Both the position numbers and the translations under genes were made by a program. From Bacteroidetes bacterium CG12_big_fil_rev_8_21_14_0_65_60_17 (GTDB taxonomy: Bacteria > Bacteroidota > Rhodothermia > Rhodothermales > UBA10348), in contig PCUY01000057.1 of assembly GCA_002787815.1 (NCBI GenBank), positions 1 to 64,000 of the forward strand: a DNA stretch of 64,000 nt, written 5' to 3'. This document shows positions 1,024 to 64,000 of the stretch, in pieces. A model generated the notes under the pieces. The model saw only the letters and a program-made list of their open reading frames with translations, ran no database searches and was not told where the DNA came from. Within the stretch, counting starts at the first letter, position 1, and each line of letters starts with the position of its first letter.

Positions 1024-3789
1024 CTGTCCACTGCGTCCATCGAAATAAGTTTTCCATACCGTCCGGCACTCGTCGAAGAAACGGAGCATGCCCTCAAATC
1101 GGGTGAGCGCCTGACCGCCTTCAAGATACTCATTGCTCCATCGGGCGGCGAGGCTCGATTTTTCCGTCTTGCCCTGGCGCGCGCCGGCGTGCGACTTGTC
1201 AACGTGGAGGCCGTCACGCTGCACTCTCTTGCCCGCCTCATCCTGCGTACGGTGCCCGGCGCGGAACCGGCCGTTTTCTGGGGGGGAGATGCGGCGCAGG
1301 TCGTTGTATCCAGATGCCTGGAGCTCCTTGGGACGCCGGCTGACCACTATCTCCGGCGGTCCCCGGCGACCGCGGAGCGCCTGATCTCGGTGCTCCGCGT
1401 CCGCGGAATCGGTTCAGATGCATGGAGGAGCGCCGGGGGCGATCCGGTGGTGGCCGACCTGCTGGAGGCCTACGCCGACATGCTGCGGCGCTGCGATGCG
1501 CTCGATGCCACGGGGATGTTGCTGCGGGCCGCGGAGCGTGTTGAGGAGTTTGTACGCCTCCGAAACCCGACGTTGCTCGTCAAACTGGACGATATCCGGC
1601 CGCTTCCAGGTGAGCGGCTGCTGCTGGAGCAACTTGAGCAGCATATTCGGGCCGTGGAATCCATCGGGGCGTCGCCCCCGAGCGTGACAAACGCGGCCTC
1701 TTTTCGCATTCTGAAGGCGCGGGACCGGGATGATGAAGTTACCAACGTACTCGGCGACGTGCTGGCCTCCGGCAGGCCTTTTGACGAGGTTCAGATCGCG
1801 CTCGCCCAACCGGCCGTGTACGGGCGGCGACTTGCAGTCGCCGCCCGTACGTACGGCATACCCGTGGTAGTGGATCATGGCGGGCTTTTTTTCGACACAC
1901 CGCCCGGTCGCCACGTGCAGGCCCTGCTCAAGTGGGTGTCCGGTGGACTCCGGCCGGAACAGGCCGTGGCGTGCGCGCGCGCCGGCCTGTTGAACCAGGA
2001 CGACCGCACACCGGGTCGACGGTGTGCGGTCGAGCTTCTCTTCGATGCCTGGCCGGTGGACATGGTCGGACTGCTTTCGCCGGATTATGCCGGTCTTCTG
2101 CGGGAAGCCGTGAAGGGTGCTTCGGATGCCGTGGACAGCCTGGTATCCTTTGCCCGGAAATACATCGAGGAGTTGCTCGATGACCGCGGCCAGCTTCGCC
2201 CTGACATGAGTCTGCAGCAGATGATTCGCTGGGTTCGCCGTGTCCTGGCGGACGTGCCGTCACGCGATACGACCTGGACGGACATCATGAATACGGCACT
2301 CCGGGGAAGGGCCGCACAGGTCATTCCGGAATCGATCACGATGCCCGTGACACGGGCGGCGGATGTTTTGCTGGGAAGTCTGCAGGGGGTACAGATGCCG
2401 GTCGATGACGGGCCACCAGGAAGCATTCTGGTCCTGCCCCTGGAGCGGGCGGCTCTTTCCCTGCGCCGCGCAACGTGGGTTGTCGGGATGGATGACAATG
2501 CTGCGGCCGGACGGTCGGCCAGTGATACCGACGGGCTTCCCCGTTCGGCCATGGACGTCCTGTACAGGCTCGGGTACGACGCCGTGCAGGAGGAGGTAGA
2601 CCGCGTACCGCTGGCAGACCTGCTCGACCGTCTCTCCCGGCGCACATCGGAAATCACGCTGTGCGTGCCGGCCTACGATGTCCGCCAGGCACGGGAGCTG
2701 TTTCCGCACGCGGCCTGCGCCGGCCTCCTTCCTGAAGACAAAACGCACGCCTCAATGATGGACCGGCCTGACCCCGTGCTGCTCGTGCCGCTCTTGGCGC
2801 AGGGACTGGAGGAGAAAATGCCCCGCATCGTGGAGGCGTGGAACGAGCGCTCCGGGACATCATGGACGGCACAGAATGGGATTCTGGGTCATACCAGTCG
2901 TCCGACGACAGCCTCCGCATCGTCGCTCGAGCGCCTCTCCGAGTGTCCGTATCGGTATTTCGTCCGGGATATCCTCGGCGTTCGCCCGCGCGAGAAACGA
3001 ACCGAGTGGCTTACGGCGGCCGAACGCGGTAGTCTCATGCATATCGTGTTCAAGGACGCACACGTTCGGGGACTGCTGACCCGTCAGGATGGACACGACG
3101 CCATAGCGGAACTGGTACGGGAGCGGCTTGAAAAGCACGCGCGGCTGTCACCTCCACCCGGATCCTATACCCGGATGGCAACGGAGACGGAATTGATTTC
3201 CATGGTCGGCACGCTGCGCGCCTTGGCCGCCCAGGAGACGGAAACATGGACGCAGGTGGAGGCGGAATGGAAGTTCAGGGATGTCAACGTGGGACCGTGG
3301 CGGCTCCGCGGGCAGATTGATCGCGTGGACCGCAATCCACAGGGTGAAGAGCGTATCCTGGACTACAAAACGGGTTCGTCCTCTCCCTATGAGGAGAAAA
3401 AACTGACAGCCATGCAGCACAGGCTGCAGTGGTTTGTGTATGCCCTGGTTCGAAAGCAGTCCGAGCAGGCAACGGTAGCCTCTTCCGGCTACCTGTTCGT
3501 GAAAGAGGGAGAATGGGGTACATTGCAGGTTGTCAACGACCCGTTGACCCATGATGGCGCGCGGCATCTTGACGTGCTTGCCGACCGCGTCAATGCGGGC
3601 TGGTTTCCCCAGGCCGCGGGCCACAGCGAATCTCCCTGCATGTTCTGCGATGTACGGCCCGTCTGCGGAGATGTGAAGTTGCTGGGTCGGATGCTGAAAA
3701 ACAAGACCGTATCGGACGACGACTTCCGCAGAAGACTTGACACCTGGTGGTACGCGGAGCGCCATTTGTTTGCGGGAGAGTCGACATGA
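1024..3789 (+). CDS. AddB-like PD-(D/E)XK nuclease / inactivated helicase subunit (start uncertain)
   Basis: ILIAPSGGEARFFRLALARAGVRLVNVEAVTLHSLARLIL (AddB-like N-terminus), C-terminal LSECPYRYF...RGQIDRVDR...ILDYKTG nuclease and CMFCDVRPVC Fe-S type cysteines. No ATG/GTG/TTG in frame where the start is expected; 1024 (CTG) is a placeholder. Confidence 0.8.
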   Translation: MSTASIEISFPYRPALVEETEHALKSGERLTAFKILIAPSGGEARFFRLALARAGVRLVNVEAVTLHSLARLILRTVPGAEPAVFWGGDAAQVVVSRCLELLGTPADHYLRRSPATAERLISVLRVRGIGSDAWRSAGGDPVVADLLEAYADMLRRCDALDATGMLLRAAERVEEFVRLRNPTLLVKLDDIRPLPGERLLLEQLEQHIRAVESIGASPPSVTNAASFRILKARDRDDEVTNVLGDVLASGRPFDEVQIALAQPAVYGRRLAVAARTYGIPVVVDHGGLFFDTPPGRHVQALLKWVSGGLRPEQAVACARAGLLNQDDRTPGRRCAVELLFDAWPVDMVGLLSPDYAGLLREAVKGASDAVDSLVSFARKYIEELLDDRGQLRPDMSLQQMIRWVRRVLADVPSRDTTWTDIMNTALRGRAAQVIPESITMPVTRAADVLLGSLQGVQMPVDDGPPGSILVLPLERAALSLRRATWVVGMDDNAAAGRSASDTDGLPRSAMDVLYRLGYDAVQEEVDRVPLADLLDRLSRRTSEITLCVPAYDVRQARELFPHAACAGLLPEDKTHASMMDRPDPVLLVPLLAQGLEEKMPRIVEAWNERSGTSWTAQNGILGHTSRPTTASASSLERLSECPYRYFVRDILGVRPREKRTEWLTAAERGSLMHIVFKDAHVRGLLTRQDGHDAIAELVRERLEKHARLSPPPGSYTRMATETELISMVGTLRALAAQETETWTQVEAEWKFRDVNVGPWRLRGQIDRVDRNPQGEERILDYKTGSSSPYEEKKLTAMQHRLQWFVYALVRKQSEQATVASSGYLFVKEGEWGTLQVVNDPLTHDGARHLDVLADRVNAGWFPQAAGHSESPCMFCDVRPVCGDVKLLGRMLKNKTVSDDDFRRRLDTWWYAERHLFAGEST

Positions 3790-6700
3790 GCCGCGTTCGG
3801 GACTGGGAGGCACGGGCCACGATACGCGGGCAGAATGATGGGAAGACACCCATGTCTTCCGATCCGTATCTGGATGTGGAGCACAATATCATTGTACGTG
3901 CCGGGGCGGGGTCCGGAAAAACCACGGCACTTGTCGAGCGGGTGCTGGCGCACCTGCGCATGGGGGAGGAGCCCTCCTCGATTGTAGCAATCACGTTTAC
4001 CCGCAAGGCTGCTGCAGAACTTCGCGGGCGTATTCATGAGGCGGTCGATGCCGCCGTGAATACAATCGCGGTTGCAGGAGAACAGGAGAGGCTGTCGCAG
4101 GCTCGGCGTCGTCTCGATGAAATGCACGTCGGAACGATTCATGGCTTCTGCGCCGGGATTGTGCGTCAGTATGCGGATGTGGTCGGTCTGCCTCCCGATT
4201 TCCGGCAGATGGAGGAGGAGGAAGAGGAGGTAATGCGGAACAGGTTCTGGAGCGGATTCATCATGCAACAGGATGAGAGCCCGGAACTGGAGTTCCTGCG
4301 GGAGGCCGGTGTGGATCGGTCCTCCCTGGTCGATCTGTTCGGGCGGCTCGTCGAAAATGCCGATTTGAATGTTGTGCGGGAGGAGCGCCGGGACGTGGAT
4401 TTTTCACCGGCCGTGGAGGCGGCCCGGCAGGTCATGGCAGACCTGGGTCCGATAGGGCACAAAGGCGACAACGAAGACGCCGTGCAGAGCCGGTTGCGGA
4501 AGGCGCGTTTCATGGAGCGCATGCGTCCCTCCATGTCCCTGGGGCAGACAGCTGAATGGTTGCGTCTGTTCTGTGATATGATCGACACCAGGGTGGGCAG
4601 GCTTCGCATGACCATGAACCGGTGGGACCGGCCTCAGAAGTTCATGAAAGCGGTGCGGGACGGCGTGGAAGATGACGTTGCGCCCTGGTGGGTTCTGTCC
4701 CGTATCCAGAATCAGATCGTGCCCCTGGTCGCTGCCTGGGATGCGCAGGTCCATGGCCGTGCCATGGCGCTTGTGCAAGATGCCGTAGACGACTATGCGG
4801 CGTTCAGGCGGGCCGAGGGAAGGTTGACCATTTCGGATCCGATACACATCCTGAATGACCTGTTGTATACCTCGGCTGACGTGCGGAACGAGTTGCAGGG
4901 CACACTGCGTCGCATCCTGATAGATGAATTCCAGGATACGGATCCGGTACAGGCGTCCCTGTTGTTCAACCTGGCTGCCGATGCAGTCGACGAGCACGAC
5001 TGGACGAGGAATCGACTCCTGCCCGGCCGCTTGTTGCTTGTTGGCGATGACAAGCAATCGATATACCGCTTTCGCCGGGCGGATTTCGAAGTGTTTTCCA
5101 GATCGGAGAAGGCCATCGTGTCCCAGGGCGGGCGAAGCCTGGTGCTTACTACGAATTTCAGATCTTCCGAGCCCATTTGCCGCTGGATCAACAAGGCCCT
5201 TGCACCGCTGTTTCAGCCTGCGGAGACGGGTCGTCGACACGAACAGGCACCCTGGGAGCCTCTGGAACCATATGATGCGGCTGCGAAAGAACCGCGGCGG
5301 ACGCAGGCGGCGCCTTCTGTCAAGGCCATCTGGCTGAACAGCACCATGCGCGCCGAGGACAGTGCCGTGGCTGAAGCGCGTGTTATTGCGCATACCATCC
5401 GGGAGCATCTGGCCGAAGGCCGCTACGAAAAGCCGAGCGACTTCATGATTCTTTTCCGGCGAAACAAGTACGTCGCTGACTATGTGGCCGAAATTACCGC
5501 GGCTGGTCTTCCCGTGCGCGTATCCGGAGGCAAGGTGTCTGGTGGAAGTGATGTCCTCCCCGCTGTATGCAACATTCTTGAATCCCTGTTGCGTGAGGGT
5601 GATGAGGCCGCAGGGATTGCCGCGCTGCGGACTCCATTCTTCGGCGTCTCGGATGCTGATCTGTACGCCTGGCGCATGAATGGGGGGCGCTTTGATACGC
5701 TGGCAGGGGATCTTTCCGGGAGCGGGCCGGACGTGGACCCGGGCGCGTCCAAGCATTCCGTGGCGGTGGCGAGCGCGACCCTGGCCCGCATTTATCATCG
5801 TTTTCAGTCGCTCTCTCCCTGGGAAGCCCTTCGGGTTACAGCGGACACGGAGGGATGGTGGGATCTGCTCCGATTCCGCTCCTCGGCTGCTATCGATACC
5901 GGCGTCCTGCAAAAGATTCTTGCGCTTTTTGCCGCGGCAGAAGAGCGTAATCTGGACTGGGTGGAGGCCACGGAAGAGCTGTTGCGCTACCGCGACGGCG
6001 ACGTGCCCATGAAACTCCACGCGGCGGACGGTGATGACGGCGTACAGATGTTGACCGTCCACCAGGCGAAAGGACTGGAGGCGCCATGCGTTTATCTTGC
6101 GGATGCAGGGTATCCGGGCGCACCGAGGGTACATACCCATTCATTTACGCGGGATGGATTGGCGTTCATTGCCCTCGCGCTGAGGTCACCCTCGGCTTTT
6201 GGCAGCCCCCAGGTGACGTTCACGCCAAGCGACTGGACCGGGGCTGTTGAAAAGGAGAAGGCATTCAGTCTCGCCGAACATGAAAGGCTGCTCTATGTGG
6301 CCTGTACCCGCGCGGCACGAGAACTTGTCGTGACGGTCCGGGATGCGCCACAAGCCGGTCACTGGGGTGACCTTGTACCAGCGCTCGCTGATGTGCCGGT
6401 CCTGGCGCGACTCGACCAGGTACCCGATCGCATCTCCATCCCCGGGGAGGAGAGCGGTCCGGATGTCAAGGGTCGCGGTGTCACATACTGGCATGACGAG
6501 CGACGCCGTGGGCTTTTGCGCATGAGGCAGGCCGTTGGTAACGCCTCGGTGCCAACGCACGAACTCGTGCGCCCAAGTGACAAAGAAGAGGTCGAAGCCG
6601 CCGTGGATTCAGTGGACGAGCTCGTCCCCCCACCCTTGGCCATTGGAATGGAGGGCAGGGAATTTGGTCAGGCGGTACATCTTGGCATGGAACGGCTCGT

Positions 6701-7139
6701 GACCAACGCCGCGGACGTAAGGACGGCGGACCTGCACGAGATCGCCGTCTCGTCCCTGCGCGCGGCCATGGGGACGGAGCCGTCCGGAACATCGGTGACT
6801 GCTGTGGTTGATGCCCTTTCCGGTTTCATGCGGGGATCGCTCTGGCAGCGGGTCCTGGAAGCTGACGAAGTACTTTCAGAGGTATCATTTACGACATCCC
6901 TGCCCGGGAGCCCTGTCCGCATCGTGTCCGGTACGGTTGACCTGGCACTGCGCGACCAAGACGCGTGGGTGATCGTAGACTACAAGACGGACCGTGTTTC
7001 GGAGCGCGCGCTGAAGGCGCTCTATGAAGGCCAGCTTGCGTTATACGCCGATTGTTGGATGCAGATGTTTCCAGGTCGCGGCGTACGTGCGGCGCTCTGG
7101 TCGACGGCGTTTCATCGGGAATTTGATCTGGCCTTCTAG
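3786..7139 (+). CDS. addA: AddA-like UvrD-family helicase/nuclease
   Basis: Walker A VRAGAGSGKTTALVERVL, ITFTRKAAAELRGRI, LIDEFQDTDPVQ, VGDDKQSIYRFRRAD, LTVHQAKGLE, C-terminal VIVDYKTD nuclease motif. ATGA overlap with upstream stop. Confidence 0.9.
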   Translation: MSRVRDWEARATIRGQNDGKTPMSSDPYLDVEHNIIVRAGAGSGKTTALVERVLAHLRMGEEPSSIVAITFTRKAAAELRGRIHEAVDAAVNTIAVAGEQERLSQARRRLDEMHVGTIHGFCAGIVRQYADVVGLPPDFRQMEEEEEEVMRNRFWSGFIMQQDESPELEFLREAGVDRSSLVDLFGRLVENADLNVVREERRDVDFSPAVEAARQVMADLGPIGHKGDNEDAVQSRLRKARFMERMRPSMSLGQTAEWLRLFCDMIDTRVGRLRMTMNRWDRPQKFMKAVRDGVEDDVAPWWVLSRIQNQIVPLVAAWDAQVHGRAMALVQDAVDDYAAFRRAEGRLTISDPIHILNDLLYTSADVRNELQGTLRRILIDEFQDTDPVQASLLFNLAADAVDEHDWTRNRLLPGRLLLVGDDKQSIYRFRRADFEVFSRSEKAIVSQGGRSLVLTTNFRSSEPICRWINKALAPLFQPAETGRRHEQAPWEPLEPYDAAAKEPRRTQAAPSVKAIWLNSTMRAEDSAVAEARVIAHTIREHLAEGRYEKPSDFMILFRRNKYVADYVAEITAAGLPVRVSGGKVSGGSDVLPAVCNILESLLREGDEAAGIAALRTPFFGVSDADLYAWRMNGGRFDTLAGDLSGSGPDVDPGASKHSVAVASATLARIYHRFQSLSPWEALRVTADTEGWWDLLRFRSSAAIDTGVLQKILALFAAAEERNLDWVEATEELLRYRDGDVPMKLHAADGDDGVQMLTVHQAKGLEAPCVYLADAGYPGAPRVHTHSFTRDGLAFIALALRSPSAFGSPQVTFTPSDWTGAVEKEKAFSLAEHERLLYVACTRAARELVVTVRDAPQAGHWGDLVPALADVPVLARLDQVPDRISIPGEESGPDVKGRGVTYWHDERRRGLLRMRQAVGNASVPTHELVRPSDKEEVEAAVDSVDELVPPPLAIGMEGREFGQAVHLGMERLVTNAADVRTADLHEIAVSSLRAAMGTEPSGTSVTAVVDALSGFMRGSLWQRVLEADEVLSEVSFTTSLPGSPVRIVSGTVDLALRDQDAWVIVDYKTDRVSERALKALYEGQLALYADCWMQMFPGRGVRAALWSTAFHREFDLAF

Positions 7140-8290
7140 GCCCGTTGCGGCGCAGGCTGGGGTACAGCCTCCATGGAGAGCGTCTCGTTCATGAACCGCT
7201 TCCAGTCCTGCATGTCCTGACTGACCGAGCGGCGAAGCTCGATCATGCGCCCCCGCAGATACGTCATTTCCTCGTCTTTACGCTTCTTGGCCTGTGCGTA
7301 TGCATCGGAAACGGTTTTCAGTGCCGTGTATTGCGTTGTCAGCTGGGTAGACATCTCTTCCACTCGGGCCACAAGGGCGTCGTGGTGTGCCTGACCCAGT
7401 GAACGGATGTGGTCGAGCAGCATCTGCTTGTCGGCGTTGATGAGTTTGCGCTTGATGGTCAGGTGATTCACCTGTTTGACATCGCGTGCAAGGCCTACTT
7501 TTTTCAGCAACCAGATGACGTATTTCGGTGGGTCAAACTGGTACCAGCGGATGCCGTTGCGATAGTCACCGGCAAACGTATGATGGTAGTTGTGGTAGCC
7601 TTCGCCGAAGGTGAGTAGCGAGAGGATGAAGTTGTTGACGGCCGAGTGCTCGGTGGAATAGGGTTTCGAGCCCCACATGTGAGCCAACGAATTGATGAAC
7701 CAGGTGCAATGATGCACCAGGAAGAGACGTGCCAGAAAGCCAACAACGATGGCTCCCAGCAGGTCGCCGGTAATTGCCCACAACACGGCTATGGCAACGA
7801 TATTGACAAGCACCATGAGCGGGGCAAAGTACTTGTGTTGAAAACGCAACACAGGATCTTTGATGAGGTCGTGTACCCACCGGTCGCGAACGAGACGTCT
7901 GCCGGTGAACATCCAGAGCATGTGGGAGTGCCAGAATCCCTTTTCGGCGTTGTAGGGATCGTCATCCGAGTCCACATGCTTGTGGTGCATGCGGTGATCA
8001 GAAGACCACTGGAGGACACTGCCCTGGACGGCCATGGTGCCGAAAAACAGCAAGACGGCTTCAATGAAACGGTTGGTTTTGTACGTCCTGTGGGCATACA
8101 GCCGGTGATACCCTGTCGTTATGGCCATCAGGGACAGTGTCCAGAGTGCCCACGACGCCAAAACCAGCTCCCATGAAGGGGCGCGCTCCATCAGGTAGAT
8201 GGGTAGCAGAACAATGAGGGCGACGTGATAGCCACCTATGAATAGCAGATTGGTCCAATCAATGCGGGTGTCGGGCGTATCCGATGGCAT
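7136..8290 (-). CDS. Acyl-CoA/fatty acid desaturase (delta-9 type)
   Basis: Histidine boxes HRLYAHR, DHRMHHKH, GEGYHNYHHTF, with several hydrophobic segments. Confidence 0.92.
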   Translation of the reverse strand: MPSDTPDTRIDWTNLLFIGGYHVALIVLLPIYLMERAPSWELVLASWALWTLSLMAITTGYHRLYAHRTYKTNRFIEAVLLFFGTMAVQGSVLQWSSDHRMHHKHVDSDDDPYNAEKGFWHSHMLWMFTGRRLVRDRWVHDLIKDPVLRFQHKYFAPLMVLVNIVAIAVLWAITGDLLGAIVVGFLARLFLVHHCTWFINSLAHMWGSKPYSTEHSAVNNFILSLLTFGEGYHNYHHTFAGDYRNGIRWYQFDPPKYVIWLLKKVGLARDVKQVNHLTIKRKLINADKQMLLDHIRSLGQAHHDALVARVEEMSTQLTTQYTALKTVSDAYAQAKKRKDEEMTYLRGRMIELRRSVSQDMQDWKRFMNETLSMEAVPQPAPQRA

Positions 8291-8315
8291 GTCAAAGTTG
8301 GGTATGAAACGAGAC

Positions 8316-9083
8316 TCAGCCTTCCGAACGCGGCCACGGCCAACAGGATCCGACTATTCGTTTCATTATGCCTGGGCATGCCACGTCCCGAAGACTGTCA
8401 AGTGGATTCTGCCCGTCAGAAACGTCATATCCGTAGGGGTAACAGGAAAGGGGACCGTCCATGAGATACTGTCGAAATTCCTGTTCCACATCCGGCATGG
8501 CGAGAATGCCCGTCCAGGCCTGGTTCAAAACCACATTGGTGTCTCCAAGAACGGGCAATCCCTGCACGTGCGCACCCCAGTATGCCGGGTGATCATCAAG
8601 AAAGGCAACCGGTATGAGTCCCATATCGATATTCTCGCGCAGTGCTTCGACCAGGGTACGCCCGTCCGATCCAGCGCCGTAGATGGCAACCGGCATACCG
8701 AATACGCACGACGCCAGGAGCACCTTCTTCACGGAGTGGCGAATGAACGGAAGCACGACGAGTGCCGCGGGAAGTGCCAGCAACATATGCAGGCTGACAG
8801 AGGGAGCGAACAGTACCCAGAGTCCCATAACGACCAGAATGGTTGCCCACTGCCGGCCGAATTCTTCCCGTCTGTCGAGCCCCCAGCCGGGGTAGAGACC
8901 GCGAATGGCAAACCCGCCAAGGCAGGCGGCCGCAGCCGCGAGTGACATTTCAGATAACAGGGTAATACCAAGGAGCCCGAGCAGATCACCCGTCAGGAGG
9001 AAGGCTGTATTGTGGGCTTTCCTGATATGGAGAGAGCGTTTTGGAACCGGATGTGAGCGCGCTGAAAGCTCCAGATGAGCCAT
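8316..9083 (-). pseudogene. Truncated WbaP-like polyprenyl glycosylphosphotransferase (N-terminal and nucleotide-binding-like domains only)
   Basis: TM segments, GLYPGWGLDRREEFGRQ, IYGAGSDGRTLVEALRENIDMGLIPVAFLDDHPAYWGAHVQGLPVLGD as in WbaP-type enzymes, but the ORF stops before any bacterial sugar-transferase domain. Confidence 0.55.
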
Positions 9084-12229: not shown

Positions 12230-15200
12230 TATTTGATGACGGCAAATTTTCCAACGTACGATCCACCATCCCAGTCAACGTGGAAGATGTACAGGCCGTA
12301 TGCGATGTTCATGTTGTCTTTGGTTCGAAGGTCCCAGAATTGTTTGCCATCGTCGACCGGTGAGTCGCGCTTAATGGTATCCACGAGTTCACCGGACAGC
12401 GTATATATCCTGATCGTGGCCTTGGCCGGGACATTCGCGAAGTACAATCGCCTGTCGCCCCGGGCGGAGCGCGAGACCGGGTTGGTCGGCTCTATGGTAT
12501 TGGTCATGACGTACGGATTGGGCACAGCATAAATACACTCACCCCGGTCATCATCACAATTGAAGACATTCTCACGGGATATCTCCACGTCGTCACGGGC
12601 CCCGATTGTGCGGAAGGTAAAGGAGTCATTGTCCCGGAACGGCTTCTCGGTACGGACAAAAAAGATGTCGCCATCGCCGGGAATTTCATCCACATCATCG
12701 AACGCAACCTGCCACGTCGCTGTCAGCGTTCCGTCTACATTTTCCAGAAAAATAATAGGTTCGTTGACATCCCACGTTCCATTCCGGTTGATGTCAGGCG
12801 TGAATACGTCAAGCTCCGTGTTGGCCTGTGTCAGGTTCACGACACGAAAGGGAATGGGGAGATTGTTGCTGAAGCTGGTTCCGATGTCGGAATTCGAGAA
12901 CGTGATTTCGTAGTCGGCGGGCTGCGGAATTCGTCCAGGACCTGAAGTGGCCACCCGAACCTGGAATGGAATATTGGCGCCTCCCAAGCTCCAACCGGTT
13001 TGATCGTCGTCAACGCTCAGTTCCACATCCTGTACGAAGAGGTGCAGGCCATCGAATACCGGATTGCCTTCTTCGCGGTTCAGAAGGTGACTGTAGGCAA
13101 TCGGACGGTGCGTAAATGTTGCCGTCAGCGAATCGCCATCGGACACCTGACCTTCCAGGACGAGTACGCTGCCACTCGCCTCGATCAACTCGTAGTCTAC
13201 GTCCTTGACGAGTTGCGTGCCATTGGCCGTTCGAAGCACGAATGAATCAGCGTTGATATTGCGAGCGCCGAGTGAGGACGTTTTACCCGTCAGTGCACGG
13301 ATGCTCACCGTTCGCGTATTCTGGTCGGTTACCGAGTAGACGGTGCTCCCGTCCCGGACATCAAAATCAATTCGGTACGTGCCGTCTGAGGGGACTGCCA
13401 TTGGATCGAGGATCCTGATATCAATTTCTCCTGTGCCGTGTCCTGTTTCGTGCTGGATGCCACCCGCCTCAATGATGGACGGGGGAAGAAATCCGGCCGT
13501 TACAGGCCTTGGTATTACACTCACCGTATTGACGTCAAAAATAAAGGACTCATCGACCGGGTTGAATGTGACCGTTTTGGAAGTTTCGCTCGGCGGTATG
13601 CCATCTGGACTGTCGATATCGCCTGAAAACCCTCTGTCATAGGCCGTGACCGCGTAGTAATACGTCTGTCCGTTCACGACACGGTTCGAGTCGACAAAAG
13701 TATGGAAGAGTCCGGTGTCGCTACCCAGGTTGAATGACACGCCACGACCGGGGAACGGAATGGCCGATGGACCTGAAAGACCATTGTCCAGGTCAAACTT
13801 GGCTTCAACACCATTCGTTGTCGTAAGCGGTTGGAAAAGGAAGGCCGAACCATTGATATCCGTGATTTTTTGCTGGTCACTGAAGGATGGATCCGTCGAG
13901 CGGTAAATGGCATATCCCTCGAAATCCTTGTCCCGTGAGAGCGGGTCCACCGAGTCTTCCGCTACGGCATCCCAGTAGAGTGACACCTTGCGGTCGCCCG
14001 GGACAGCTCTGAGGTTGGGTTTTGCGGGGGGCCGTGCGAAACGATAGCCAACATCGAAAATCTGTTGAGCTGTTTCAGCATTGAGGCGAAGGTCGTTGAG
14101 AGATTCTCCCAGTACGAGGGCAATGGAGAAACGCTTCGTTTCACCCGCGCGCAGCGGGAAGTAGCCTGACCCGTAGATGAAGACGTTGTCACCTGGCTCT
14201 TCCGGAATCTCACTGAAGTTACCGGGCTCAACAAATTGCCAGACCCGCTCATCATTACTGATACGGTTGCCGGCAAAAGGTGGGGAAGCGAACGAGGTAA
14301 GGCCAATCATGTCAGACTCGTCGATATCAGTAAACTCGAAATTCGGTTCACCCGGCTTAGTGATATCGAACAGGTCGCCCGCAGTTGGAATGCCGTCACC
14401 CTCACCCTCATCTCCAGTACCGGGAATGCCGTCTATACCCACATCGTCCGTTTCGGGGTCCCAGTCATTGTCATTGTCGATGCCATCGGTCCAGGACTCA
14501 TCGATCATTCCATCGCCATCGTTGTCAATACCATCACCCTCAAATCGCTGTCCATTGATGATTTCCGTTCCGAGACCCGGGCTTTCAAGAAATTTGTAGC
14601 CAAAGAAACCCGGTACCCGCCCGGGAATATCTGAACGTCCATCGGCATCGAACGCAAATACCATATTCAGATTTGGATCGAAAAAAGCCAGATCGTCCGG
14701 CCAGTCGCCTGGGCCGCCGATGTGCGGGTCACCCCACATACCGAAGACAACCTTGTCAAGATCTTTTTCCGACTTGTTGGTGATCTTGTAAACCATGAAG
14801 ATGGTGTCCTCTGCCAGGGGATTTGCCCATTGGTACAGTCGGACCTCCACTTCCAGGCCAAGACCACGCTTTGTGGAATCCGACGGAAACGGGTAGTACT
14901 TGAATTCCCTGTTGCTGTAGTCATTCATGAAGTAGAGTGCTTCCTTGTCTGCATTGGAAGCACCTTGCTGCAGGGCTCCGGGCCACACGAACTCCTTCAG
15001 GTTTTCGTTGAACCAGTCGTCCGGCCAGGAGTCAGGCTTGCCATCGAGGTCCTTGTCTTCAGCATCGGACACGGGAATCAGGGGAGAGTCTGGATTGACG
15101 ACATTGAGTCCGTCAAAATTTCCAACGGGTTCAGCGCACGGAATGGGTTGCCAGCCCCAATGCTCCGTTCCATCGGGGCTCACTTCACCACCATTGGAGA

Positions 15201-55516: not shown

Positions 55517-56248
55517 GTGCGTCTGGCCATCTGGAATACACCGTTTACCAAGCCTGTTGGACACGCGTTCGATTCGGTTCCGGGGATTTCCGTGTTCCAG
55601 GGATCGTCGGTAGACGTCGTGGCCCGTCTGGCTGCAGACCAGGCCGATGTCGCACTTGTCCCTGCTGATCATGCACTGACGGCTTCCGACGATGTGGACA
55701 TCCTGCCGGCCGTGGCGGTTTCCATGTGGCAGGCCGAGAGTTCGCGTCTTGTTCTGCCAAGTGGTCTTTCCAGTCCTGTCCTCTCCCTGCTGACAGGGCC
55801 GGAGTCACTGTACATGACGTTGCTGGCGCGTATCGTGCTCAAGGAGCATTACGGAAAACAGGTACTGGTCCTGGATGCAGGAGAGTTCCAACTCCACCCT
55901 TCCTGGATGCCGGCGGTTGTGGCAGAAGGAGAGGGAGATCCGTTTGAGATGGATCTTGTGCAGGAATGGTCGGAAATGGCGCACTATCCCCTCGTCGCGG
56001 CGCTGTTCATCACACGCAAAGGACAGGCGACGGGTGAGGTCATCCGAACGGTACGTGATGTAGTCTGCGCCTTCGATGACAAACGCGATGACAGGGAACG
56101 CAACCGTGTTCGTCTGAGGCTCGATGACCTGACTGTAGCCAGCCTCAGTGAATTGGCAGACTATTTGTTTTATTACGAGATGACCCCGGAGATCCAGGGA
56201 GTCACGTTTGCGAGTCTGGACGACGAGGAAGAGGAGACACATCCATGA
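55517..56248 (+). CDS. Divergent MqnA/MqnD-like periplasmic-binding-fold protein (putative)
   Basis: AADQADVALVPADHAL resembles the MqnA DxGLIP segment; MDLVQEWSEMAHYPLVAALFITRKG resembles the MqnA DLxxxWxxxTGLPFVFA block. N-terminus is divergent. Confidence 0.5.
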   Translation: MRLAIWNTPFTKPVGHAFDSVPGISVFQGSSVDVVARLAADQADVALVPADHALTASDDVDILPAVAVSMWQAESSRLVLPSGLSSPVLSLLTGPESLYMTLLARIVLKEHYGKQVLVLDAGEFQLHPSWMPAVVAEGEGDPFEMDLVQEWSEMAHYPLVAALFITRKGQATGEVIRTVRDVVCAFDDKRDDRERNRVRLRLDDLTVASLSELADYLFYYEMTPEIQGVTFASLDDEEEETHP

Positions 56249-56700
56249 CAGATGCACGCAAAATCGTAACCAAAAACAGGAAAGCTACCCACGAATACCA
56301 CATCGAGGAGCGCCTTGAGGCAGGATTGGCGCTCAGGGGAACTGAAGTCAAGGCGCTTCGCCATGGGAAAGCCAATCTCCAGGAAGCCTTCTGTGCCCTC
56401 GAAGGGGGTGAACTGAAGCTGTTTCAGTGTCATATTGCACCATACGAATATGGCAACCGGCAGAACCACGACCCGCTCAGGCCCCGAACGCTGCTCATGC
56501 ACCGCAGGGAAATAGACCAGTTTGCCAAGGCTACGGCGCAGAAAGGTTATACGATCATTCCGCTGTCCATTTATTTCAGGAACGGGCGTGCAAAGGTCGA
56601 GATCGGTCTCGCCAAGGGTAAAAAGCTCTACGACAAGCGCCACGATATAGCGGAACGGGAGACCAAAAGGCGGATGGACCGGTTGTCCAAGGCACGTTGA
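56245..56700 (+). CDS. smpB: SsrA-binding protein SmpB
   Basis: KNRKATHEYHIEERLEAGLALRGTEVKALRHGKANLQEAF...RTLLMHRREI...GRAKVEIGLAKGKKLYDKR; ATGA overlap upstream. Confidence 0.98.
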   Translation: MTDARKIVTKNRKATHEYHIEERLEAGLALRGTEVKALRHGKANLQEAFCALEGGELKLFQCHIAPYEYGNRQNHDPLRPRTLLMHRREIDQFAKATAQKGYTIIPLSIYFRNGRAKVEIGLAKGKKLYDKRHDIAERETKRRMDRLSKAR

Positions 56701-56779: not shown

Positions 56780-58867
56780 ATGATGTACCCTGTGGGCGTA
56801 TACCGATCCCTGTTGCGTATGCTGGTGCTGGCAGCGCTGCTGTCTGCCCTTGTTGCTTCCGATTCGGTAGCACGTCAGGTCCCTCCGGGAGAACAAGGTA
56901 CGTTGGATGCGACGGTCCAGATGGTCTACGACCTGCTGCGGGGGACAGACGAGGACCGGGCAGAAGGGGAAGCACTCCTGCAACATGTGTTGGATGGCCA
57001 TCCGACGCACACGAGAGCCCGTGAGGTTGATATCTGGCGGCGATACCGGTTTGGTGGATCGTTCATGCCCGTTGTGCGGCACGAAATGAGGGAGCGGGCG
57101 GCGAGGCAACTTCTCAGGGACGACAGTCTGAATGCGGGTGCACATCTGGTGCTTGGCCTGCTGGAGCTTGACCTGTTCCGCCAGAGTCACAACCGGGTCC
57201 AGTTGCCCTCCCGGCTGTCCGAGGGAAATCGGATCGATTCATGGCTGGGGTTTGTAGATGTGGCGGTGGAAAGATCAGACAAAGACACGCTCGTCTCCCT
57301 CTTCGACGGGGAGTTTCTCAATGCCCGCGCCCGTCTGGTTCGGGATGACGACGTGTCGGGCCGTCATGCTGAACGTGCCCGGGGCCACCTGGAAACCGCC
57401 ATATCAGATGCATTCTGGGCCAGTGAGGCTGGAGATGGGTTGGCAGAACTCGCTGTCCGTACGCGTGACGGAGCGTTATTGGAATTCGTCGCCACACAAT
57501 TGGAGCGGCATGCGAACACGGCGCGAGCCCACGAATTGTGGACGCTCCACCACATCATGGGGGGGCGGACCGAAGAAGCTCTCCGAAGCCATGATGCCGC
57601 GAGGCGTTCCATGAAGGCCAGCAGGTTACGGCAGGTCGAAGATCTGCGGACGGTGGCTGCACCCTCGATGATGGCTGCCGACTCCGTGGACCAGGACTGG
57701 ATGGACAAGGATCCGCTGTGGATGACCGAGGGAAATGAACGGGCGGCCGAGCACATGGCCCGGGTCGTGGTCGTAGAGCTTCTCTTCGGGTCGTATTTGT
57801 CGCCCGAGCGTGCTCTTTTTTCAGATCCCGGGCAACTTGTGCTCCGATACGGGATCCCCTCGGAAACAGTCCGTTTTTCTTCCGATCAGGATGGATTCCT
57901 GCTGCTGAACTATCCGGATCAGTACTACCTGTTTCACGACATGGCAAAAGCCGGTACATGGATTTTCTACAGCAGCTCGGCAGCGGCGCTTACCGGGCCA
58001 CGGAGCGTGACGCCCCAGTGGGAGCGGGATTTTGCTCTGCGGGCTCAGGAAGCGTTTGAAAACCAACCGGACATAGGCCGGATACCGGACAAGGACCGCG
58101 TTGATATGAACACGGCCTGGTATGTGTTCAGTGACGGCAAAGGTGCGCCGGGCCGAGACGGGTTGACGGCTGTTGCCGCATGGTGCGCGCCGGAGTCGCT
58201 GCGGAGTGAGAACGTCCGGATGGGTATGTATGCTGTTGAGCGCAATGGGCAACAGGTCGTGCTCCGGAAGGAGTGGTCGGGTTCGCCGGGGACCGGTGAC
58301 GGCAGTGAACATTGCCGGACCAATACGCGTCAGGTACGGTTGCCCGCAGGACGTTGGCGGATGTCGCTGGAAGCGGTGGCGACGAGCACATACACCGTGT
58401 CCCGTCACGAGGCCGTCGTATCTACCATGAGTAGTATAGTACCGGCCCGACTGATTGTGGAGAGGGATCCGGAAAGCGCGCCGCCCGATGGATTCTTTGA
58501 GCGGGGAGATCTCTGGATAGAGCCGCTGGTGCCAGCGGCCGTGCCGTCCAACGAACCGGTGTCCGTGTACGCGGAAGTGAACGGGATTCCGGAGGATGTT
58601 GAATCTGTTTCCATTGAAGCCGTACTGGGTCCGCGGAGCGGGGACGAGGGTCGGCGGTGGTTCGGAAGGGGGCGCAAGGAGGCGGTATCGGTTCGGTTTG
58701 AGCAGGATGTTACAGGGTCCTGGGCGGCTGTGCGTCTTGTGCTCGACGTTTCGAACGTGGATCCGGGAGCCTATGACCTGGTGGTGCGTGTGACGGGCGG
58801 CCATGGAAACTTTTTCACGACCGAGAACAGGGCGATGCTGGTCGTTCTTGAAGACGCAGATGGATAA
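56780..58867 (+). CDS. GWxTD-domain-like secreted protein (degenerate motif)
   Basis: DWMDKDPLWMTEGNERAAEHMARVVVVELLFG...FSDPGQLVLRYGIPSETV...WIFYSS matches GWxTD-region architecture; signal peptide from MMYPVGVYRSLLRMLVLAALL. Confidence 0.7.
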   Translation: MMYPVGVYRSLLRMLVLAALLSALVASDSVARQVPPGEQGTLDATVQMVYDLLRGTDEDRAEGEALLQHVLDGHPTHTRAREVDIWRRYRFGGSFMPVVRHEMRERAARQLLRDDSLNAGAHLVLGLLELDLFRQSHNRVQLPSRLSEGNRIDSWLGFVDVAVERSDKDTLVSLFDGEFLNARARLVRDDDVSGRHAERARGHLETAISDAFWASEAGDGLAELAVRTRDGALLEFVATQLERHANTARAHELWTLHHIMGGRTEEALRSHDAARRSMKASRLRQVEDLRTVAAPSMMAADSVDQDWMDKDPLWMTEGNERAAEHMARVVVVELLFGSYLSPERALFSDPGQLVLRYGIPSETVRFSSDQDGFLLLNYPDQYYLFHDMAKAGTWIFYSSSAAALTGPRSVTPQWERDFALRAQEAFENQPDIGRIPDKDRVDMNTAWYVFSDGKGAPGRDGLTAVAAWCAPESLRSENVRMGMYAVERNGQQVVLRKEWSGSPGTGDGSEHCRTNTRQVRLPAGRWRMSLEAVATSTYTVSRHEAVVSTMSSIVPARLIVERDPESAPPDGFFERGDLWIEPLVPAAVPSNEPVSVYAEVNGIPEDVESVSIEAVLGPRSGDEGRRWFGRGRKEAVSVRFEQDVTGSWAAVRLVLDVSNVDPGAYDLVVRVTGGHGNFFTTENRAMLVVLEDADG

Positions 58868-61133
58868 AAGGCTGATTTGCTTCGCATTGGTCGTGCTGCT
58901 TTCGTCGGCACGATTTTATTTCGATACGGTTGCCCAGGTGGCGATTGTGCGCGGAACGGTGACCGATGCGACATCGGGAGAAACTCTGCCCGGCGTGAAC
59001 GTGGTGCTGCTCAGTGACGACGGGGATCTTGTCAAAGGGGCGGTAACCGACGAGTCGGGCGTCTATGCGCTCTCGCGTATTTCCCGAGGCGTGTTTACGC
59101 TGCGAGCCACATTCGTGGGATTTGATGCCTGGGAGCAGAGGGTGATGATAGCGATGGATGAGCGCACAATCATCAATATCGCGCTCGAGCCTGTGCAGTC
59201 GGAACTGGGCGAGGTCGTGGTAGAGGGCGACAGGCGCGATGGTATCGTGAAGGTGACGGCAGGCCAGACAACCGTGCTGCCAACGGACATCGACCTCGTG
59301 CCCTCGCCGGACGTGTCGGGTGATCTGGTCAATTATCTGACCGCGATGCCGGGAATTGTATCGGTGGGTGACAGGGGAGGTCAACTGTTTGTCCGCGGGG
59401 GGGAACCCTGGCAGAATCTGGTCCTGCTGGACGGTATGTGGGTATACCAGCCATTTCACGTTCTCGGCTTCTTTTCCGCTTTTCCAAGTGATATCATTTC
59501 ATCGGTTGATGTCTATGCAGGCGGTTTTCCGAGTCAGTTCGGTGGTCGACTCTCCTCGGTCATGGACGTGCGCAGCCGCAACGGCAACAAGCGGTCATAT
59601 GAGGGCTCGGCGGCAATTGCGCCGTTCATCACAGGCTTCACACTGGAAGGGCCCCTCGATACAAATGGCAAGGTCTCCTTTCTGACATCGTACCGGGAAT
59701 CGGTCATTGAACGGGGTGCATCACACCTGGTGTCCGATGATCTGCCGTACTCGTTCGGGGACTTCTACGGGAAAATCCATGCGCTTCCATCCGGAAACTC
59801 ACAGTTGTCCATCAGTCTGCTTACGACGCACGATGAGGGAGCTGTCTTCGAGGGAACGGCGGTGGAACCCGCGGAGCAGGTGGAGTGGAAAAATACGGCA
59901 GCAGGCATCCGTTATACGGTGCTTCCGAATGTGTTGCCGGCCATGGCCCAGTTCAGTATCAATGTGTCCAGGTTGGAGTCCGATCAGAGTGTGGGCACGG
60001 CCAATTCGAGAAGCACGGAGATCGAGTCGGTCAACAGCAACGCGGATATTACGTACTTCAACGGCGATACGACCGTGAGATGGGGCATCTTTGCACGGTC
60101 ACTGCGCGCAGAATCGCGTCTTGGCGGCTTGTTCCAGAACGTAGAGCTTCGGGAAGAATTCCTGACCGAGGTGGGAGCTTATGTGGAGCCGGAGTGGGAG
60201 GTTCGCGGGGGTTGGGATGTGAGGGTAGGACTCCGGGCCCACAGTTTCCCCAGTAAGAGTGTGAGTTTCCTTGAGCCCCGATTGCGACTTGTTCGGACAG
60301 GGCTCGTGAATGAGATTTCTCTGGCGGCCGGAATCTATCACCAGGAAATCGTTGGCCTGCTTGACCGTCGGGATGCGGCCGGCGTGTTCACGGCGTGGGC
60401 TGCTGTGCCGGATGGGTTCAGCGTGCCGTCATCATCGCACCTTATCGTCGGCTGGCAGCGGACATTTTCGGAGTCGTTCGAGCTGGGCATAGAGCTGTAT
60501 GGCAAGGAGCTGCGCAATCTCTTCATTCCGGAGTGGACGGCGTTTCCCCGGTTTACGACGAATCTCCAGGAAGCCGACGGGGAGGTTCTCGGTGGCGATT
60601 TCCGACTGAACTACCAGAAGGGCCGGTTCGGAGTTTTTGTGACTTACGGGCTGTCGCGAACACGTTACAATGCCAAACAGGAGTCACTTCCCGTGTGGTT
60701 CGGTACGGATGAACTGGAGTTTCGACCAGCCCATGACCGGCGACACCAGATCAATGTGGTGTCCAGGCTCGACACGCGTTATGCAAATTTTTCAACACGG
60801 TGGCAATTCGGATCCGGTCTTCCATTCAATCAGGCACAGGGTTTTGATGGATTCGTACTGCTCGACGGTAATGTGGATGTGACGACGGAACCCGGCAGCC
60901 GACGCGTAATTTTCGACAAGCCATTCGGCGGAGAGCTGCCAACCTACCACCGCCTGGACATTTCGGCTGAAAAATCAATGCGTGTGTCCGGTCACGGACG
61001 GCTCACGCTCCAGGCAGGTGTAATCAATATTTATGATCGTTCCAACCTGTTCTTCCTGGATGTATTCACACAGAACAGGGTGGACCAGATTCCCATCATT
61101 CCGAATTTCGGCCTCAAATTGGAGTTTCACTGA
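58860..61133 (+). CDS. TonB-dependent receptor with CarboxypepD_reg-like N-terminus
   Basis: VRGTVTDATSGETLPGVNVVLLSDDGDLVKGAVTDESGVYALSRISRGVFTLRATFVGFDAW; LPGIVSVGDRGGQLFVRGGEPWQNLVLLDGMWVYQPFH-type plug region; C-terminal FGLKLEFH. Confidence 0.9.
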   Translation: MDKRLICFALVVLLSSARFYFDTVAQVAIVRGTVTDATSGETLPGVNVVLLSDDGDLVKGAVTDESGVYALSRISRGVFTLRATFVGFDAWEQRVMIAMDERTIINIALEPVQSELGEVVVEGDRRDGIVKVTAGQTTVLPTDIDLVPSPDVSGDLVNYLTAMPGIVSVGDRGGQLFVRGGEPWQNLVLLDGMWVYQPFHVLGFFSAFPSDIISSVDVYAGGFPSQFGGRLSSVMDVRSRNGNKRSYEGSAAIAPFITGFTLEGPLDTNGKVSFLTSYRESVIERGASHLVSDDLPYSFGDFYGKIHALPSGNSQLSISLLTTHDEGAVFEGTAVEPAEQVEWKNTAAGIRYTVLPNVLPAMAQFSINVSRLESDQSVGTANSRSTEIESVNSNADITYFNGDTTVRWGIFARSLRAESRLGGLFQNVELREEFLTEVGAYVEPEWEVRGGWDVRVGLRAHSFPSKSVSFLEPRLRLVRTGLVNEISLAAGIYHQEIVGLLDRRDAAGVFTAWAAVPDGFSVPSSSHLIVGWQRTFSESFELGIELYGKELRNLFIPEWTAFPRFTTNLQEADGEVLGGDFRLNYQKGRFGVFVTYGLSRTRYNAKQESLPVWFGTDELEFRPAHDRRHQINVVSRLDTRYANFSTRWQFGSGLPFNQAQGFDGFVLLDGNVDVTTEPGSRRVIFDKPFGGELPTYHRLDISAEKSMRVSGHGRLTLQAGVINIYDRSNLFFLDVFTQNRVDQIPIIPNFGLKLEFH

Positions 61134-61137
61134 TACC

Positions 61138-62031
61138 ATGCAAGCCCATACACTGATATTGTCGACACTGGTTGCCATCCTGGTATCTCTGTTTCTGGTT
61201 GGATGCGAAGAAAATGTCAGCCCCGTCGTGCCGACGGAGCGTGTCTTTACGATGTGGGGCTTTCTGGATCCCACGGTGACCGGGCAGAAAGCGCGTGTAT
61301 TCCGGATTGAACCTGTACTGGAACCCACCCGTCCCGAACCACTCGGTGCCACGATGGCTGTAACCGATGTGGCGTCGGGTCAGATGACTGTATGGCGTGA
61401 CTCGCTGATTCTGTTTCCGGATGGATTTTACGGGCATGTGTACCAGGCCAGTCAGGAGATCGGTTTCGATCGGGAATACCTCGTTGAACTGGAAACGCCC
61501 GAAGGTCTCGCTTCTTCGGTGCTCGTACGCACGCCCCCCGAAACCTCGCCGGAGTTGTCGGAAATCCAGAACGTACGTTTCAACGTGAAATTCCGCGTAC
61601 GCTGGAACAGGGCACCGCAGCTTCTGGATTTGAAAGTGCGCTACCATGTGGGTTTTCGCAGTCGAGGGTCGAGCGGGGCCTTCACGTCCGGTGTGGTTAC
61701 ACTACAGACGGGTGCGGTTGAAACCGCTTCTGACGGCACTCCCGTCACGCTGATTGAGCCCACTGCCGACCTGGGTACCATCCTGCAGATGCTGAACCTG
61801 CAGGCCGGACGCGATGAAATGACACTGGACTCCATTACGGTTGCACCGTTCGTGGCGTCGGATGAATGGCGCTCACCGACTGGCTCGTTCGATGCGGAAG
61901 TACTCGTGCAGCCGGGGACATTGTCCAATGTCGAAAACGGATTCGGCTTTTTCGGGGCCGGATTCGAGGATGCGTTTGTCGTTCACCTGCCTGATGATGC
62001 CGTAGAGAACGCAGGTTTTACGATTCGCTGA
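61138..62031 (+). CDS. DUF4249-like putative outer-membrane lipoprotein
   Basis: Lipobox-like SLFLVGCEENVSP; directly follows the TonB receptor; beta-rich, single-domain size. Confidence 0.55.
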   Translation: MQAHTLILSTLVAILVSLFLVGCEENVSPVVPTERVFTMWGFLDPTVTGQKARVFRIEPVLEPTRPEPLGATMAVTDVASGQMTVWRDSLILFPDGFYGHVYQASQEIGFDREYLVELETPEGLASSVLVRTPPETSPELSEIQNVRFNVKFRVRWNRAPQLLDLKVRYHVGFRSRGSSGAFTSGVVTLQTGAVETASDGTPVTLIEPTADLGTILQMLNLQAGRDEMTLDSITVAPFVASDEWRSPTGSFDAEVLVQPGTLSNVENGFGFFGAGFEDAFVVHLPDDAVENAGFTIR

Positions 62032-62094
62032 TTTGTTCTGAACCCGATTGTGTGTCGTGGAGTACCATGACATGGATAAATTGGTATCAACAGT

Positions 62095-64000
62095 ATGACC
62101 ATGTACAAGCGTTCGTCCCTGTTGGCAGCCTGTCTACTGCTGGGTGTACTTACCCTGGCCCAGGCCTCATTGGCTCCAGCGCAGTCTGCATCGGATCCGA
62201 TGACCGATGGCATACTTGCCTTTCGCAGCGGCGAGTATGCACAGGCTGTGTCCTTCTTTGAATCGGCCCTTGCGGCCAACCCGGACAACGCCGAAGCACA
62301 CTTTCTGCTCGCCCGCATTTTCTGGGAGACGCCCCTGAGGGACGTTAAACGGGCCGGAAACGAACTTGAAAAGGCCATCGCCATTGAACCGGACAATGTG
62401 CAATATCTTGTCGCTTCCCTGCAACAGAACAAGGCCGATGCATCGAACTTCATCACGGAAAAAATCCGGGAGAGCAAGCGCCGCCGACTGGCACAGACCA
62501 TTCTTGAACTGGATCCGGACAACTCGTTTGCACACGAGGAAATGGGCAGCAGTTACATCCGTGATTTCTGGCGGTACCGCAACGCACTCATGTATCCGGC
62601 GCTTACATTCAACGAGTACAAATACCGGGGGTCAACGACCATAGATCCCATGGCTGGGTATCTGGTGGACGACATCAACGAATTCGACCGCTCACAGGGT
62701 AACCTGGAGTCCGAACCACTGGATACAGAGCTGATCGGCGCTGTTGAAGCGAACTACGACCCCAATTCGATTTTCATGGCCGACGAGTTTGATGTGGAGA
62801 CGCTGAAGCGCCAGGGCATTCCTGTAATGGACCTCTCCAGTCGGGCCCAGAAGGCGTACGACAAGGCTATTTCGCACCTCGGGAAGGCTCTTGAGGCGGA
62901 TCCGCGGCAGCGCTCGGTCTACGACCATCTCATGGAAATCTATGCGCTCAAGGGAGAGTACGAGGAAGCCATGAGCATGCTGTCGCAGATGTACGTGTTC
63001 TTCCCGGAGGACAGCGAACTCTGGACGTATCTGGGTTTCACGCACTACAATCTGGGTAACATGGATGCCGCCTCCAAGTCCTTCGAGACAGCTTTCAAGT
63101 ATATGACACCGGAGGAACGCCAGGCCTATGACGGGCTGGACATCATTCTGCCCCGCGACGAGAAAAAAGCCTATGAAGCCGACAGGGCGGCCTATGCATC
63201 GCGCTTCTGGACAAGCAAGGATCCGCGGTACCTGACGCCGTACAACGAGCGCAAGATGGAGCATTACGTCCGTTTAACCTATGCTGACCTGCTCTATGGC
63301 GCACCGGATCTCGACCTGCGTGGTTGGAATACCGAACGGGGAGCCATTCTGGTCAGGTACGGACCGCCCCAGGGAGATGTCGTGATTATTCCAAGAAGTA
63401 CGTCCGGCGTTCGCCAGGGCGTGGCCCCGGTGGGCGGGACGCAGTCCGACCCGACAGGCAGTGTCGGGTTGGCGCTTGAAGTCGGCCGCCGTGGGTCGGA
63501 GATGGACCTGGCAGAAGAAGCCAACACCTTCAACATCTGGGACTACGGAGAATTCAAGTTTGTGTTTGAGGACCCATTCCGCAACGGAGAGTACCGGCTT
63601 TACAGTCCTTCGGCATCAGAAATAGCGGACGGTTCGCTGCCGTGGGCCAACGATTACACAATCAAGGCGAAGGAGACCTTCCTCGAGACGCCGGAACGAT
63701 ACGAGTACGAGGCTCCGGGGCGCCAGGTGGAATTGCCGTACATGGTGTCATCATTCCGGGGACAGAATGGGCAGACCGATCTGATTGTCAATTATGGCAT
63801 ACCGATCACGGAAAATCTGAACGAAGGACAGGATGTGATCAATATCACGGCCAACACCGGAACGTTCGTCGTGGCAGGCAACCGGGACATGCTGGTAGAG
63901 CGTCGTAACGTGATATACGGTCTCCGGACGGAGCAGATCGTGCCCTTCATCGATACGCAGTTATGGATCAACACGGTTGAGGCCGAAGTCCCGCCGGGTA
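62095..64000 (+). CDS. TPR/GWxTD domain-containing secreted protein, partial (runs off right edge)
   Basis: MTMYKRSSLLAACLLLGVLTLAQASLA signal; TPR-like AEAHFLLARIF, EYEEAMSMLSQMYVFFPEDSELWTYLGFTHYNLGN; RFWTSKDPRYLTPYNERKMEHYVRLTYADLLYG...RGWNTERGAILVRYGPPQGD. Confidence 0.85.
   Translation, partial: MTMYKRSSLLAACLLLGVLTLAQASLAPAQSASDPMTDGILAFRSGEYAQAVSFFESALAANPDNAEAHFLLARIFWETPLRDVKRAGNELEKAIAIEPDNVQYLVASLQQNKADASNFITEKIRESKRRRLAQTILELDPDNSFAHEEMGSSYIRDFWRYRNALMYPALTFNEYKYRGSTTIDPMAGYLVDDINEFDRSQGNLESEPLDTELIGAVEANYDPNSIFMADEFDVETLKRQGIPVMDLSSRAQKAYDKAISHLGKALEADPRQRSVYDHLMEIYALKGEYEEAMSMLSQMYVFFPEDSELWTYLGFTHYNLGNMDAASKSFETAFKYMTPEERQAYDGLDIILPRDEKKAYEADRAAYASRFWTSKDPRYLTPYNERKMEHYVRLTYADLLYGAPDLDLRGWNTERGAILVRYGPPQGDVVIIPRSTSGVRQGVAPVGGTQSDPTGSVGLALEVGRRGSEMDLAEEANTFNIWDYGEFKFVFEDPFRNGEYRLYSPSASEIADGSLPWANDYTIKAKETFLETPERYEYEAPGRQVELPYMVSSFRGQNGQTDLIVNYGIPITENLNEGQDVINITANTGTFVVAGNRDMLVERRNVIYGLRTEQIVPFIDTQLWINTVEAEVPPG

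Follow-up and report, generated by a model that had tools for sequence, protein, structure and literature searches.

The gene block that follows smpB in this genome is best explained, with reasonable though not high probability, as two separable modules that probably share one transcript: an uptake pair of a TonB-dependent transporter (T) and a DUF4249 lipoprotein (LP), and an older pair of GWxTD proteins, in which B would be the scaffold and A its loosely constrained paralogue. We analysed a window of 64,000 nucleotides, positions 1-64000 of a 160-kb contig in a draft genome, in which housekeeping genes occupy the region 5' of the block, smpB being the last of them. An earlier note, made from the window's letters alone, had described four closely spaced open reading frames, and the ORF calls agreed with it in every position and spacing (Table 1). 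A and T overlap by 8 bp (58860-58867), T and LP are separated by 4 bp (61134-61137), and LP and B by 63 bp (62032-62094). The note had also proposed extending the sequence to the right to finish the operon. Read beyond the window, the full B frame (L002) encodes 824 aa; its end, at contig position 64569, overlaps that of the convergent purE gene by 10 bp, which completes the block. Judging from the spacing and the common strand, A-T-LP-B probably lie on one transcript. A sigma-70 scan returned no sites above chance, a Bacteroidota-type promoter pattern was looked for and not found, and terminator-like sites were no commoner than chance.

Table 1 Position of the block genes, their upstream flank and the two GWxTD motifs in the window.
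Feature	Position	Strand	Basis or remark
smpB	56245..56700	+	Upstream flank; Pfam SmpB 1.1e-58; same flank in relatives
A, GWxTD paralogue, exported	56780-58867	+	ORF call
Eroded GWxTD motif in A, FSDPGQLVLRYGIP	57818-57859	+	Motif comparison
T, TonB-dependent transporter with signal peptide	58860-61133	+	ORF call
LP, DUF4249 lipoprotein	61138-62031	+	ORF call
B, TPR-GWxTD protein, exported	62095..64000 in the window, then on to contig position 64569	+	
Near-canonical GWxTD motif in B, RGWNTERGAILVRYGPP	63319-63369	+	Motif comparison

T consists of a CarboxypepD_reg-like N-terminal domain (Pfam CarbopepD_reg_2, 1.2e-16), a Plug domain (2.3e-7) and a barrel, and it matched a TonB-linked outer membrane receptor in the PDB (9gbc_A, 1.1e-6). 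The stretch GEVVVEG (59208..59228, + strand) is a TonB-box-like motif, as read by eye from known TonB boxes. LP of the window alone stayed under the DUF4249 gathering score, and a DUF4249 match was present in 30/30 aligned sequences, that is, LP and 29 relatives. The lipobox Cys of LP is invariant and acidic residues come next to it (VGCEEN at 61198..61215, + strand), which suggests surface export. The structure models in this work were built on shallow alignments; that of LP, with a mean pLDDT of 84.9, is rich in Ig/FnIII-like beta-sandwich strands, and its fold search gave generic Ig/FnIII-like matches only, with TM-scores < 0.4 and no specific structural relative. The LP search retrieved 36 loci, 7 at this locus and 29 elsewhere (mostly T-LP pairs), and T adjoins LP in nearly all DUF4249 loci retrieved. 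By analogy, T and LP would plausibly work as an uptake pair in the envelope, and pairs of this nutrient-uptake type are common. LP would be anchored outside the outer membrane, where it would cover the channel T and present the ligand, and T, opened by TonB energy, would import it.

For the GWxTD genes, the claim that the receptor and lipoprotein are flanked by two proteins of this type was borne out at two levels of sensitivity. B exceeds the NCBIfam cut-off (TIGR04514, 50.2 vs 28 bits) and contains N-terminal TPRs (Pfam TPR_19, 1.3e-20), the GWxTD domain and tandem C-terminal beta-sandwich domains. A of the window alone passed no Pfam or NCBIfam model, TIGR04514 included, and it is recognisable as a GWxTD relative only because of its family profile, which matched canonical GWxTD in a profile-profile comparison (96%, E 2.3e-9). 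Compared with each other, the alignments of A and of B matched over their full length (663 columns, probability 100%, E 2.8e-53), and by this comparison the two are full-length paralogues. In A the TPR and GWxTD regions are eroded and a beta-sandwich region is found at the C-terminus, while clear TPRs are still present in an outgroup A (L084). The near-canonical and the degenerate motif of the earlier note were located in B and A, respectively. A full motif occurs in A of most genera, e.g. RGWETEPGQVVIRYGWP, and erosion is limited to the genus of the window and one further group, with L037, L041 and L089 as eroded relatives; the degenerate/intact pairing is therefore not a designed feature.

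Within the genus, identity was 60-63% for A, 78-79% for LP, 90% for T and B, and 91% for smpB. Pairwise dN/dS values, which are rough since dS is high, were 0.15-0.23 for A, 0.07-0.10 for LP, and about 0.02-0.04 for B, T and smpB (0.03-0.04 for B and T), which are thus under much the same constraint. A evolves at ~5x the rate of B, and these ratios indicate purifying selection on A, but of a loose kind. An in-frame TAA lies inside A of a congener (L093, G001:C9, about 12553-12605); either A has truly been lost there or the stop stems from a faulty assembly.

In the second module B is a core exported protein. Its TPR repeats, GWxTD domain and two beta-sandwich domains most likely form a scaffold in the periplasm on which envelope proteins or glycans dock, and B would perform its own older envelope job off the shared transcript. 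A is a fast-evolving duplicate of B that kept the general architecture, but its TPRs are no longer recognisable and the GWxTD motif has been lost in this genus; it would serve at most as an optional adaptor. In a fragment model of B the C-terminal sandwiches were good and the GWxTD region reached a pLDDT of only 25-40, so the proposed scaffold role leans on domain types, not on structure. Fold search with the C-terminal domains returned only RbmA and arrestin-like sandwiches at low TM, and a PDB search gave no sequence relative of the GWxTD domain. A look-alike motif had raised the suspicion of a BamE-like GWxTD fold; no BamE matches occurred in 60 genomes of the class. GWxTD proteins are present in 146/248 sampled genomes of the phylum, and the literature searched contained no paper giving them a role. 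Two further arrangements were observed. One genome with the full block also carries another two GWxTD-like ORFs in tandem, with a 4-bp overlap (L070, G013:C121, 3523-7213). In G236 (C126, about 3091-8752), and likewise in G273 and G275, adjoining ~420-aa frames match only the post-GWxTD region, which suggests that stand-alone C-terminal domains have multiplied locally.

Conserved synteny, the test named by the earlier note, is present within the family, which belongs to the Rhodothermales. We sampled 25 draft genomes (G000-G024), in which a lone absence may be an assembly gap. The order smpB-A-T-LP-B was found on one contig in 13/25, and this recurrence puts the block far beyond chance; four more (G006, G017, G020, G024) are consistent with A-T-LP-B on split contigs. 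Three genomes have T-LP-B without A (G010, G018, G023), four have B alone and form one clade (G004, G008, G009, G014), and in G005, which is 70% complete, no block gene was found. In three other families, A-B without T-LP occupies the same smpB/purE place (G032, G034, G039; L084, L085, L088), and outside the family B also occurs as the only block gene (G027, G029, G037). In several outgroups tyrS separates smpB from the GWxTD genes; in L088, L096, L097 and L098 we take the gene at this place, reading it by eye, to be a tyrosyl-tRNA synthetase gene.

Selection for joint function could be another cause of an order kept in ~17/25 family genomes. In a rival reading the four proteins are an envelope machine, in which A and B would bind T from the periplasmic side and hand on or assemble the T-LP cargo. 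The order and the close spacing, both preserved throughout the family, the joint loss of A and T-LP in one clade, and the TPRs of B, which suit protein docking, all fit such a machine. It is nevertheless unlikely in view of the family genomes with T-LP-B or B alone, the outgroups with A-B only, and the 29 T-LP or LP loci elsewhere, none of which had a match to the GWxTD profile, which detects canonical members, in flanks of <=10 kb (some limited by contig ends). The window's own genome carries two more DUF4249 genes (L137, L138; G000:C82, 75828-79943) with no GWxTD gene on C82 among the matches, its GWxTD loci lying on C21, C90 and C39. A, T, LP and B thus do not co-occur obligately across family and outgroup genomes, and this distribution disfavours an obligate four-protein complex. 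Of what was first proposed, synteny within the family and T-LP as a plausible pair hold up; the same distribution speaks against a general link between GWxTD proteins and TonB channels. We likewise give little credence to a TonB-dependent uptake system whose periplasmic part is the GWxTD pair, where the fast-evolving A, specific to ligand or receptor, and the conserved B would bind T on its inner side and receive or route its cargo; if true, it would provide the first biochemical role for the GWxTD domain.

Gene order conserved in one family can reflect one old insertion, and the trees, which were quick and without bootstrap, bear on this. All T of this locus fall in one clade (100% SH-aLRT) with subclades resembling those of B, and L064, tagged as 'elsewhere' in the T tree, also sits at this locus; the single clade points to one ancestral T-LP insertion, which is known from one family only. 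In the GWxTD tree the A types split from the B types, and the outgroup A of G034 and G039 group with the A types (support 89-94% for several branches concerned), the first pair gene of G032 not being placed. In the simplest history, A-B is an old pair that a single insertion of T-LP split in the family ancestor; T-LP was inherited vertically since, with later losses of A in some lineages and of A and T-LP jointly in one clade. Since T-LP is a common pair inserted once into an older, separable GWxTD pair, the neighbourhood alone is no proof of a four-protein machine.

Such a history could also mean that T-LP happened to enter the smpB-purE neighbourhood, itself strongly conserved, and has stayed there through inertia, as the single insertion, the vertical inheritance and the housekeeping flanks (smpB, purE, and tyrS in outgroups) would allow. 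Pure hitchhiking is very improbable, since the common strand and tight spacing were kept despite divergence (T 56-57% and LP 37-38% identity to distant genera). It is also conceivable, although doubtful, that, once T-LP had been inserted, A came to serve it specifically while B kept its own older role. In no family genome does A occur without T-LP, and one clade has lost the two jointly; against this, at least one loss of A left T-LP in place (G010, G018, G023), and A was already fast in outgroups that lack T-LP (G034 branch 0.86 vs 0.32 for B). Under the two-module reading, A may be an optional partner of T-LP. The locus offers a natural experiment, in that related genomes carry B in the presence or absence of A and of the transporter module.

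Compared with known systems, the block shares an outer-membrane barrel and surface lipoproteins with the Bacteroidota BAM complex (BamG, BamH). Membership was considered and dropped: BamG is FadL-like and not a TonB-dependent transporter (PMC12611786, PMC12578637), whereas T matches TonB plug models. In its general layout, a TonB barrel accompanied by a surface lipoprotein, the T-LP pair resembles SusCD and BtuB-BtuG (PMC10404256). Unlike SusCD, T scored 50.4 bits against the SusC/RagA model TIGR04056, far under its cut-off of 368, and LP belongs to DUF4249 with no SusD match reported. In BT2172/BT2173, a conserved operon, disruption of either gene had similar consequences (PMC11003636). T-LP is best read as an uptake pair of this type: it has the same adjoining TonB-dependent transporter and DUF4249 lipoprotein genes, likewise kept as a pair, but lies between two GWxTD genes. 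Within the GWxTD family (TIGR04514 / PF20094), B passes TIGR04514 and A is related at the profile level. Canonical members of this genome are about 420-500 aa long, and in them beta domains come first and the GWxTD domain is C-terminal. In B, TPRs are N-terminal and the beta domains follow GWxTD; it is from this B-type layout that A derives.
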